From Pseudomonas sp. NC02 (GTDB lineage: Bacteria; Pseudomonadota; Gammaproteobacteria; Pseudomonadales; Pseudomonadaceae), in assembly GCF_002874965.1 (NCBI RefSeq), contig NZ_CP025624.1, forward strand, positions 434,001-498,000: a stretch of DNA of 64,000 nucleotides. Direction: 5' to 3'. Under the pieces are notes generated by a model, which saw only the letters and a program-made list of their open reading frames with translations, searched no databases and was not told the origin of the DNA. Shown here one piece after another: positions 3,235-41,047 of this stretch (positions within the stretch are counted from its first letter, which is position 1; each line of letters opens with the position of its first letter). A program made the position numbers and the translations under genes.

Positions 3235-5694
3235 TTAGAACAAGTCGATCGGCGCCGCCTCGTCCGCCGGCAGCGGGCTGCCCGGTGCAACACCATTGCC
3301 CAGCTCGTTGACCGACGGCGGCGTGTCCTCGCTCTTGAACAGCTCGAAGTACGCATTCGGCGTGCTCGGCGCTGCTGCACGGCCGCTGACCGGGTCGATC
3401 CGCAGGCTCAGGATGCCTTCCGGTTCCGGCTGGGTATGCAGCGGCATATCCTTCAGCGCGGCGCCCATGTAGCTCATCCAGATCGGCAGCGCGACGGTGC
3501 CGCCGAACTCCCGGCGACCGAGGCTTTCCGGCTGGTCGTAACCGGTCCATACGGTGGTCACGTAGTCGGCGTTGTAGCCGGAGAACCAGGCATCCTTGGA
3601 ATCGTTGGTGGTACCGGTCTTGCCGGCGATATCGGCACGGCCCAGGGCCAGGGCGCGACGCCCCGTACCTTTCTTGATCACGTCTTCCAGGATGCTGTTG
3701 AGGATGTAGGTGGTACGGCCATCCACAACGCGTTCGGCTACCGCCGGCGCTTGAGGTGCGGCGGGGGCGCCGGCTGCCGGGGCTTCGCCTGGCGTCGGCT
3801 CGATGGTGATGCCGCCGTTGGCCGGTGCTGCCTGGCCGTCAGTGGCCGCGACGCCATTGACCACGTCGCCCGGTACCCGTGGTGGGTTGGCGGTGAACAG
3901 GGTTTCGCCGCTACGGCTTTCTATCTTGTCGATCAGGTACGGGGTGATCTTGTAGCCGCCGTTGGCAAAGGTGCTCCAGCCGGTGGCGATTTCCATCGGC
4001 GTCAGCGTGGCGGTACCCAGTGCCAGGGACAGGTTGGGCGGCAGGTCCGACTTGTTGAAGCCGAAGCGGGTGATGTAGTCGATGGTCTTGCCTACGCCCA
4101 TCGCCTGCAGCAGGCGGATCGACACCAGGTTACGCGACTTGTACAGCGCCTCGCGGACGCGGATCGGGCCGAGGAAGGTGTTGGTGTCGTTCTTCGGGCG
4201 CCAGACCTTGTCCAGGTACTCGTCGACGAACACGATCGGTGCATCGTTGACCAGGCTGGCGGCGGTGTAGCCGTTATCCAGTGCAGCGCTGTAGATGAAC
4301 GGCTTGAAGCTGGAACCCGGCTGGCGCTTGGCCTGGGTGGCGCGGTTGTAGTTGCTCTGCTCGAAGGCAAAGCCGCCGACCAGGGCACGGATTGCACCGT
4401 TCTGCGGGTCAAGCGACACCAGCGCGCCCTGTGCCACGGGCACCTGGCTGAATTTCAGGCTGTCGTCCTTCTGGCGCTGCACGCGAACCAGGTCACCGAC
4501 CTGGGCCACGTCCGACGGCTGCTTGGGCATCGGGCCCATGCTGTTGGTGTTCAGGAAAGGGCGGGCCCATTTCATGCTGTCCCACGACACATGCTCTTCG
4601 CCGGTGCGCGTCAGTACCTGCACGCCATCTTTCTTCACCTGGGTGACGATGGCGGGTTCAAGGCCGCTGATCGGGCGCTGTTTGCCCAGCTCGACGGTCC
4701 AGGCGCTCAGGGTCTTGCCCGGCAGGCGCGATTCAGGGCCGCGGTAGCCATGGCGCTGGTCATAGGCGACCAGGCCATCGTGTACCGACTTGTTGGCGAT
4801 TTCCTGCAGGTTGCTCGGAATCGTCGTGGTCACGCGGAAACCTTCGGTGTACGCCTCGCTGCCATAGCGGCCGACCATCTCGGCACGGGCCATTTCGGCG
4901 ATATACGGGGCATTCACTTCCGGGGTCGGCACGTGATAGCTGGCGTTCAGCGGCTCGGCCACCGCACTTTCGTACGCGGCCTGGTCGATCTTGCCCAGCT
5001 TGTACATGCGGCCCAGGATCCAGTCGCGGCGCTCTTTGCTGCGCGCCGGGTTGGCCAGCGGGTTGAAGCGCGAAGGCGCCTTGGGCAGGCCGGCAATCAT
5101 CGCCATCTGCGCCAGGCTGGCGTCACGAATCGATTTGCCGTAGTAAACCTGTGAAGCCGCCTCGATGCCGTAGGCGCGGTTGCCCAGATAGATCTTGTTG
5201 ACGTACAGCTCAAGGATCTCGTCCTTGGTCAGCTGACGTTCGATCTGCAACGCCAGGAGGATTTCCGTGGCTTTGCGGGAAAAGCTGCGTTCGCTGGTGA
5301 GGAAGAAGTTCTTCGCCACCTGCATGGTGATGGTGCTGCCACCGGATTGAATGTGTCCGCTTTTTACCAACTGCGTGGCCGCCCGCACCAGGCTGCTTGG
5401 GTCGACGCCATAGTGATTGGCGAAGTTATCGTCTTCAGCCGACAGCAGGGCGTTGATGAAATTGGGTGGAATGTCGGCGAAACGGATCGGTGTGCGGCGC
5501 ATTTCGCCGAACTCCGCGATCAGTTTTTCGTCGCTGCTGTAGACCCGCAAAGGAATCTGCAACTGGATACTTCTCAGGGCCTCTACGGAGGGCAAACCGG
5601 GACTAAGGTAGAGATAGGCCCCGCTGAGCACGAGCATCAGCCCGCAGACGATCGCGACAATGGAGTACCCGAAAAACTTCAGCAGACGAATCAA
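3235..5694 (-). CDS. mrcA: Penicillin-binding protein 1A (class A)
   Basis: An 819-residue bifunctional inner-membrane enzyme that polymerises glycan strands and cross-links peptides. A membrane anchor spans about residues 9-30. The GT51 domain carries AEDDNFANHYGVD (catalytic Glu87). A PBP1A-specific OB-like insert precedes the transpeptidase domain with SSFK (nucleophile Ser461), SRN (520-522) and KTGTT (692-696). An Ala/Pro-rich insert at about 610-655 lies just before the KTG region. The start is TTG at 5692-5694; the adjacent ATT aligns with the usual MRLLKF start, so the exact codon is uncertain. It is divergent from the pil genes, the arrangement conserved across gammaproteobacteria. 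Confidence 0.95.
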   Translation of the reverse strand: MIRLLKFFGYSIVAIVCGLMLVLSGAYLYLSPGLPSVEALRSIQLQIPLRVYSSDEKLIAEFGEMRRTPIRFADIPPNFINALLSAEDDNFANHYGVDPSSLVRAATQLVKSGHIQSGGSTITMQVAKNFFLTSERSFSRKATEILLALQIERQLTKDEILELYVNKIYLGNRAYGIEAASQVYYGKSIRDASLAQMAMIAGLPKAPSRFNPLANPARSKERRDWILGRMYKLGKIDQAAYESAVAEPLNASYHVPTPEVNAPYIAEMARAEMVGRYGSEAYTEGFRVTTTIPSNLQEIANKSVHDGLVAYDQRHGYRGPESRLPGKTLSAWTVELGKQRPISGLEPAIVTQVKKDGVQVLTRTGEEHVSWDSMKWARPFLNTNSMGPMPKQPSDVAQVGDLVRVQRQKDDSLKFSQVPVAQGALVSLDPQNGAIRALVGGFAFEQSNYNRATQAKRQPGSSFKPFIYSAALDNGYTAASLVNDAPIVFVDEYLDKVWRPKNDTNTFLGPIRVREALYKSRNLVSIRLLQAMGVGKTIDYITRFGFNKSDLPPNLSLALGTATLTPMEIATGWSTFANGGYKITPYLIDKIESRSGETLFTANPPRVPGDVVNGVAATDGQAAPANGGITIEPTPGEAPAAGAPAAPQAPAVAERVVDGRTTYILNSILEDVIKKGTGRRALALGRADIAGKTGTTNDSKDAWFSGYNADYVTTVWTGYDQPESLGRREFGGTVALPIWMSYMGAALKDMPLHTQPEPEGILSLRIDPVSGRAAAPSTPNAYFELFKSEDTPPSVNELGNGVAPGSPLPADEAAPIDLF

Positions 5695-5911
5695 GGCTTT
5701 TGGATTTCCAAGGAAAAGAATGGGTTAGGCGTCGGGGCATGCACGGCAAGTGGTGGATCGACCCGGCCAGCAGATAAACGCGGGAAAAAACGCTGGGCAT
5801 TAAAGCATTTTTCGGCTTCGGGCGTCATTCGCGCCGCTCATACAAGCCGACCGAATGCAGGAAGCCTGGCAGCAATCAGTCCGTAAGACAGGGAAAGTTT
5901 TGGGGAGTTTT

Positions 5912-40356: not shown

Positions 40357-40380
40357 TTTAGCAGGCAACACATCACCCAT

Positions 40381-40468
40381 GTGGGAGCGGGCTTGCTCGC
40401 GAATGCGGTGGATCAGTCGAATTCTCTATTGACTGACTCACCGCATTCGCGAGCAAGCCCGCTCCCAC
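40381..40468. repeat. REPIN, main family
   Basis: Arms GTGGGAGCGGGCTTGCTCGC and their complement extend inward as GAATGCGGTG/CACCGCATTC. It starts 24 bases after the parA stop, in the 441-base gap before the DUF3077-like gene; the rest of the gap is the structured leader described separately plus about 125 bases with nothing recognised. Confidence 0.92.
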
Positions 40469-40594
40469 ATTTGGTCTTTGTTCCTACAGGGAAATCGTCG
40501 TCTTGCGCCGTTGCCTACAGTTACGCCAGAATCCGCCGGCTTGTGCGTCTGGATGGGCGTCTCTAAGGTTGTTCGGTCGCTGAATTCTCAGTGA

Positions 40595-40778
40595 TCGGGT
40601 TTAGTAGCCCGAGTGTTTGTCGTTAAGTGCATAAGCTTCATCTTTCAGGCGCTGAGTCTGTGCTTGATGGTAGCTGTGCGTAGGGCGTCTTCGGGCGCGC
40701 CGGCTTCGACATTTCCCGGTCTACTAACCTGCGTACAGCTGCCACCCTAATTCGTTTAGTAGCGATCAGATGGCGGCT
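40595..40778 (+). promoter_or_regulatory. Candidate structured leader with interleaved complementary segments
   Basis: A hairpin TCGGG/CCCGA with TTTAGTAG in its loop (40595-40612) opens the element. Further on, CTACTAA (40721-40727) is complementary to TTAGTAG (40756-40762), and AGCTGCCA (40737-40744) to TGGCGGCT (40771-40778, one G-U). These two pairings interleave, so as RNA they form an H-type pseudoknot or two exclusive states. TTTAGTAGC occurs twice. The element ends 19 bases before the small gene's ATG. From memory, similar leaders precede DUF3077/DUF6124 genes in other pseudomonads; that is not checked here. Confidence 0.5.
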
Positions 40779-40797
40779 CCAATCAGGAATGTCGACC

Positions 40798-41047
40798 ATG
40801 TTTAAAAGCTACTCCAAATCCCCCGTCGTACCTTTTTACAGTCAGCCCCGGCCAAGCCACCGAAACCCTGATCCTCAATACCTACGAAACCTTCTCCTCA
40901 GTCACCACCCTCTTGCTCGACCTTTCCGACGACCTCACCGGCAAGCAGCGCGATGTCGCGTTGGCCATTCATCAGTTGAGCGAATTGGGCGTATTGCTGA
41001 TGGGGCAAGTGATGGACCGGGGTGTCCCGTTACCTCAAACGCCCTGA
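40798..41047 (+). pseudogene. DUF3077-like small protein gene with a +1 frameshift
   Basis: The ATG at 40798 opens MFKSYSKSPVVP. After a run of five T (40833-40837) the sensible reading shifts by one base to TVSPGQATETLILNTYETFS, then LLLDLSDDLTGKQRDVALAI and QLSELGVLLMGQVMDRGV, ending at TGA 41045-41047. Joined, this gives an 82-residue helical protein resembling the DUF3077 family. The unshifted frame continues as a Pro/Arg/His-rich chain typical of a wrong frame. One extra T, programmed +1 slippage at UUU-U, or a sequencing error would each explain it. The 3' end overlaps trxC by 13 bases. Confidence 0.65.

Follow-up and report, generated by a model that had tools for sequence, protein, structure and literature searches.

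A predicted C4 antisense RNA module before a DUF6124 gene in Pseudomonas sp. NC02, and related modules across the genus

C4 antisense RNA was first found in phage P1, and RNAs of this kind are known for their role in phage immunity. According to the available sections of one study, RNase P cleaves the C4 RNA of phages P1 and P7 to give a stable product of ~77 bases, which represses translation (PMC5320573). In P1 a single transcript is made, RNase P frees the 5′ end of C4, and C4 blocks a downstream ribosome site, as far as the excerpts of two articles go (PMC5320573, PMC12197685). In one A. baumannii genome, 21 similar Group 1 C4-like sRNAs with a variable a′ loop are described, and their processing at a GGW motif was inferred from RNA-seq for all but two; the sections available identify no target for this set (PMC5320573), whereas most of the C4s reported here match the gene just downstream. 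IsrK of the Salmonella prophage Gifsy-1 stimulates in trans the translation of its own long transcript and has been likened to P4 seqA/CI, C4 not being named in the available text (PMC4825925).

We analysed a stretch of 64,000 nucleotides of Pseudomonas sp. NC02, called the window here. When the window was scanned with Rfam, positions 40663-40749 matched the C4 antisense RNA family RF01695 with 77.5 bits against a cut-off of 45, over the full length of the model (positions 1-87 of 87) and with an E-value of 9.4e-16 to 1.9e-13, depending on search size. The initial annotation had suggested an undescribed cis-regulatory RNA family in this leader; instead, the RNA family itself is already known, and the part upstream of C4 resembles a second one, c4-a1b1 (RF03163). 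Judged from its sequence, the locus is a known kind of system, a C4 antisense module, rather than an undescribed pseudoknot. The identity of C4, the order of the sites and their pairing, co-variation and specificity were all computed in silico. The features, in order along the window, are as follows.

40541..40569, + strand: putative promoter (TTGTGC at 40541-40546, 17-base spacer, TAAGGT at 40564-40569)
40563..40615, + strand: c4-a1b1-like leader, 5′ hairpin plus a1 hairpin (RF03163)
40600..40607, + strand: site a1 (TTTAGTAG), loop of the hairpin 40596-40611
40618..40622, + strand: weak candidate for b1 (TGTCG), 5 pairs, -6.0 kcal/mol
40663..40749, + strand: C4 antisense RNA (RF01695, 77.5 bits)
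40668-40684/40728-40744, + strand: C4 stem P1, the 17-bp outer stem
40685-40698, + strand: C4 stem P2, UUCG loop
40699-40720, + strand: C4 stem P3, 12-base loop
40704..40715, + strand: P3 loop, antisense segment b′, pairing with b2
40721-40727, + strand: CTACTAA, the linker, antisense segment a′, 5′ half of the 7-bp pairing
40737-40744, + strand: AGCTGCCA, part of the 3′ strand of stem P1, 8 pairs with the mid element, -13.9 kcal/mol
40755..40762, + strand: target site a2 (TTTAGTAG), inside a short TCG/CGA hairpin
40756-40762, + strand: TTAGTAG, 3′ half of the 7-bp pairing, within a2
40771-40778, + strand: mid element TGGCGGCT, partner of 40737-40744 and second stem of the initial annotation
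40785-40788, + strand: Shine-Dalgarno sequence AGGA, 9 bases before the ATG at 40798
40786..40795, + strand: target site b2, overlapping the Shine-Dalgarno AGGA
40798..41047, + strand: DUF6124 gene with an early frameshift; domain at 40832-41020, open in a frame other than that of the start

The order of sites is that annotated in phage P1 (AF234172), namely a1, b1, c4, a2, b2 and icd, and the starts of a2 and b2 are 30 bases apart in the window (40756, 40786) and 29 bases apart in P1. Both C4s, that of P1/P7 and that of the window, have three stems, and in both the linker and the P3 loop are matched by complementary stretches in the target, with b2 just before the start codon. Counted as contiguous pairs, the linker of phage P1 makes 7, its P3 loop 11 and the contact of the 3′ strand of stem P1, referred to below as the third contact, 5 (weak). 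Unlike P1/P7, the modules here are chromosomal, have many paralogues per genome and target DUF6124 instead of icd-ant. The gene content of P1 immI is not reproduced in the window, where the downstream gene is DUF6124 and not icd plus an antirepressor, and two DUF6124 representatives gave no match to the Icd-like model of NCBIfam, to which the Icd protein of P1 does match. Antirepressor-type genes of the Bro-N family follow C4 in 2 of 150 modules collected (L023 and L024, of which L023 was put to Pfam).

Upstream of C4, the window matches the c4-a1b1 model end to end at 40563-40615, but its score of 43.7 bits (E 4.8e-10) lies under the cut-off of 46.7, which 8 of the 19 modules of the same genome reach. 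The putative upstream target copy consists of an exact a1 and a weak candidate b1 of only 5 pairs. The putative promoter is based on a conserved TTG and TA...T in an upstream alignment of 137 modules, and a generic sigma-70 scan of this region returned 0 promoters. The window also resembles IsrK (RF01394) in placing a leader before a small gene under translational control, predicted in our case, although the isrK model itself scores 23 bits in the window against a cut-off of 50. Outside the genus, 4 of 12 C4 loci (L032, L164, L167, L169) have an isrK match directly before C4, where the a1/b1 sites are expected. In that position IsrK may correspond to the a1/b1 leader of a C4 system, and leaders of the IsrK type may be sponges of C4. 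The a1/b1 leader may regulate C4 itself.

The initial annotation had described the region 40721-40778 as a 7-bp and an 8-bp pairing that interleave, with loops of 9, 11 and 8 bases and 19 bases from the last paired base to the ATG at 40798. All these coordinates and lengths are exact, as is the upstream hairpin CGGG-TTTAGTAG-CCCG at 40596-40611 with TTTAGTAG as its loop. The first of the two stems is the C4 linker pairing with a2 (7 pairs); the second, AGCTGCCA with TGGCGGCT, includes one G-U. For an interleaved pair of this kind (7 or more and 8 or more pairs, with G-U counted), dinucleotide shuffling of the 59 bases gives 11 cases in 5000, and 70 cases occur among the 3198 overlapping stretches of 59 bases in the 64 kb. 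The geometry is only moderately unusual and by itself weak evidence, and the case rests on comparative evidence. A further contact, absent from the initial annotation, joins the P3 loop at 40706-40715 to b2 at 40786-40795 with 10 pairs, one of them G-U, at -12.6 kcal/mol. In the minimum-energy fold of the leader (40572-40812), C4 forms closed and the a2 segment sits in its own hairpin, while the a1 hairpin gives way to other pairs.

Contacts were compared among 150 distinct modules, comprising 19 from the same genome, 102 from 11 of 12 relatives of the same genus (the top of the list from a first survey) and 29 similar to the window by DNA; they are the better-scoring or window-like hits and not a random draw. 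A profile search of 157 loci gave no hit in 6 (L031, L032, L042, L080, L092, L108), and one partial second hit and the duplicates L049 and L153 were removed before reaching 150. The mean energy of linker:a2 pairing is -8.67 for cognate and -5.50 for non-cognate combinations, and that of P3 loop:b2 pairing is -12.68 and -6.31, respectively. For the upstream sites the corresponding means are -8.70 and -6.00 with the linker, and -10.86 and -7.81 with the loop; for the third contact they are -14.52 and -13.33. In all five contacts the observed cognate mean was reached by 0 of 10,000 permutations, which overstate significance because the compared modules are related; 34 of the 150 have the same linker as the window.

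Among 28 linker heptamers found, 25 have at least one exact a2 match, and an exact a2 is present in 136 of the 150 modules, when random pairing gives a mean of 14.3 and a maximum of 23. Contiguous linker:a2 pairing of at least 7 occurs in 140/150, and in 10 of the 12 loci outside the genus. Likewise, an exact 7-base a1 copy lies upstream in 141/150 (random pairing: mean 15.6, maximum 28), so the upstream TTTAGTAG loop pointed out in the initial annotation is a conserved second site. In 129 of 144 modules the pairing with b2 reaches into the Shine-Dalgarno zone. Compensatory changes in the two stems had been proposed as a check, and co-variation is strong for the 7-bp pairing, while the 8-bp pairing turned out to be the least specific of the three contacts.

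When linker and P3 loop are taken jointly, the own target is best for 107 of 119 C4s in 10 genomes, among the same-genome modules sampled. In the genome of the window, the only one with all its listed modules included in this comparison, the own target is best for 17 of the 19 C4s; viewed in reverse, 4 of the 19 targets pair better with a C4 other than their own. With each contact taken singly, the own target ranks first, alone or tied, for 12/19 linkers, 14/19 P3 loops and 4/19 third contacts. The linker alone is unspecific, and that of the window favours the target strip of L011 (-8.4) over its own (-6.5). As the a′ and b′ segments differ among paralogous modules and co-vary with their own targets, most C4s would mainly control their own neighbour.

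The energy of the third contact is -14.5 against -9.4 with shuffled targets, and it is reached by at most 1 of 20 shuffles in 98 of the 150 modules, while 8-11 contiguous pairs are found in 7 of the 12 loci outside the genus. As complementarity between two stretches of sequence, the contact is genuine. Its preference for the cognate partner is small (AUC 0.606 against 0.926 for linker:a2), because the 3′ strand of stem P1 is conserved. With the order b′, a′ and outer strand in C4 and the order a2, mid and b2 in the target, the linker contact and the third contact would cross. Variants of the P1 3′ strand are uninformative, with the exact pentamer in the target in 19 of 103 (CCACC), 2 of 31 (CCGCC) and 1 of 8 (CCTCC). 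The mid element could instead serve mainly as an mRNA hairpin that hides the Shine-Dalgarno sequence, its match to C4 being incidental, and we give this possibility somewhat less than an even chance. A hairpin covering the Shine-Dalgarno sequence is predicted in 126 of 137 modules, but shuffling of the mid part still leaves an expectation of 116.9 of 137, and an incidental match agrees poorly with the excess over shuffled targets and with the long pairings outside the genus given above.

We conclude that the locus is very probably a C4 module built like the immI leader of phage P1, in which C4 would keep the adjacent gene from being translated. Its transcription and processing, the repression itself and what a1/b1 does we infer by analogy. 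A single transcript, starting perhaps near 40576, would carry a1/b1, C4, a2, the mid element, b2 and the small DUF6124 gene. C4 would be cut out of this leader, as in P1 presumably by RNase P at the 5′ end. Its linker (a′) would then pair with a2 and its P3 loop (b′) with b2, and the b2 pairing would hide the Shine-Dalgarno sequence and keep the gene off. By its predicted pairing, the upstream a1/b1 copy can capture the C4 segments that contact a2 and b2, and it may work as a brake or a sponge. The structured regulatory leader foreseen in the initial annotation is thereby borne out, in the form of a C4 antisense module.

The DUF6124 domain of the window scores 85.4 bits in a six-frame search, and the gene is frameshifted, so there is possibly no protein to control. 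At the same place in genome G054 the gene is intact (82 aa), with DNA 97% identical over 581 bases. At the same site in G101 (L172), a natural deletion has removed the greater part of C4, a2 and the mid element but has left the gene intact and spared the promoter region and the a1 sequence; expression without repression would then seem not to be lethal, provided that the promoter works. The frameshift against the intact G054 copy and the loss of most of C4 in G101 would both suit a decaying relic, a broken gene with a leftover C4 that lacks a present function. We consider this unlikely, as pairing is retained among C4, a1, a2 and b2, and synonymous changes exceed non-synonymous ones in the domain (5 against 1 with G054, 13 against 3 and 8 against 2 in the other comparisons, of 69 codons). 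Since the differences are mostly synonymous, the break would be recent, or else a sequencing error in a short single-base run, and indeed the frameshift may be such a one-base error. With the gene frameshifted or mis-sequenced, the C4 of the module may be silencing a broken gene here. For P. putida KT2440, one study reports that the reading frame of a DUF3077 pseudogene was restored in a strain adapted to furfural (PMC9630843).

Two other elements of the window were noticed. A match to Rfam asponA (anti-ponA RNA, RF02812) with 149.8 bits lies at 5422-5715. Between a ParA-like gene and the C4 module, at 40380-40469, there is a long imperfect palindrome (GTGGGAGCGGGCTTGCTCGCG...), which we take to be REP-like and whose sequence differs in G054.

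The targets of the window's C4 could also lie elsewhere, in paralogues or in incoming DNA, and not in its own gene, much as the C4 of P1 acts on a superinfecting phage. The linker CTACTAA is common to five C4s of the genome, and one phage-named record has a C4 (78.7 bits) directly before a DUF6124-like gene. We nevertheless regard such action as improbable, because the P3 loop of the window pairs at -12.6 kcal/mol with its own b2 but at -2.6 to -6.4 kcal/mol with the other 18 targets of the genome, and because a search with one DUF6124 protein as the query found relatives in no plasmid record and in one phage record. The C4 in the phage-named record (Pseudomonas phage DVM-2008, L174) is at 2368-2454, beyond prtR and at the end of the record, and this region may be phage or flanking host DNA.

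A cis-acting two-state switch, as an H-type pseudoknot within one transcript or by exchange with the upstream TTTAGTAG hairpin, is quite improbable: both pairings exist, an unprocessed transcript could form linker:a2 in cis and the upstream copy is conserved in 141/150, but the best fold has a closed C4 with its 17-bp stem P1 and a2 in its own hairpin, the 8-bp contact has little cognate preference (AUC 0.606 against 0.926), and the P3 loop:b2 contact has no place in such a model. The leader fold and the comparison of contact specificities disfavour a pseudoknot or riboswitch reading, and the pairings are best explained as contacts of an antisense RNA with its target.

Modules of the C4 antisense type are numerous in this genus. 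The genome of the window has 19 C4 hits over the cut-off. In a first survey, C4 was present in 14 of 19 genomes, own included, with 1 to 42 per genome in 12 relatives of the same genus. A wider draw covered 149 genomes of the genus, own included; a C4 match is present in 138 of them and exceeds the cut-off in 137. With scoring limited to 27 candidates in each genome, the C4 counts of this draw are lower bounds. Class-wide, 12 of 229 genomes including the own one have a match, and the other 11 have 1 to 4 copies each. With few copies across the class and many in the genus, the expansion is marked in this genus, and this large chromosomal expansion has apparently not been reported before.

What follows C4 is usually one protein family. 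When downstream frames were clustered (phmmer), the main cluster had a frame in 111 of the 150 modules, and 9 of its 9 members put to Pfam match DUF6124 or DUF3077 above cut-off, in agreement with the recurrence before DUF6124/DUF3077 genes of this genus to which the initial annotation had pointed. By coordinates, 15 of the 17 DUF6124 matches of the own genome come after a C4. The remaining two genes (L170, L171) are without a C4 hit, and L170 retains a TTTGGCGGCTC stretch resembling remains of a2 and the mid element. A second cluster is found in 18 of the 150 modules and a third, of ~53 aa, in 8; three members of the former and one of the latter were run against Pfam, and none scored above cut-off (modules named for the two clusters: L001, L006, L013; L020, L021, L025, L029). 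Other small clusters look like wrong frames, and 11 modules, including that of the window, have no clustered frame downstream. In L023 and L024, from two genomes, C4 precedes mutually related proteins, the L023 protein being of the Bro-N antirepressor type, as in phages. Outside the genus, the 8 downstream proteins tested comprise a Rha regulator (L163), a Bro-N protein (L168), a sub-threshold ORF6C match (L166) and 5 with no match. L010 has a second, partial C4 profile hit (model 31-85) about 1.2-1.3 kb past its first C4.

The DUF6124 protein is modelled mainly as two long helices (mean pLDDT 84.2, pTM 0.53), and 0 of 187 PDB matches reached E <= 0.001 as a fold relative. NCBIfam (two representatives, with five other proteins also run), PHROGs (one representative, with four others) and PADLOC (three proteins) gave no name for DUF6124 proteins. 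In the part of the open literature that was consulted, we found no description of C4-DUF6124 modules or of their co-variation.

For the genus as a whole we propose, tentatively, that a phage immunity RNA has been turned into a chromosomal network of antisense switches, up to ~40 in a genome and largely insulated from one another. In each switch, a 7-base linker together with a P3 loop would direct C4 to the small gene of its own module, which is usually DUF6124/DUF3077. The third contact and an IsrK-like a1/b1 sponge of C4 would add an on-switch to the known off-switch. Naturally matched pairs of loop and target could be used as regulatory parts. Likely C4 targets can be read directly from sequence, with many modules per genome, which makes specificity, insulation and the role of the DUF6124/DUF3077 proteins testable.
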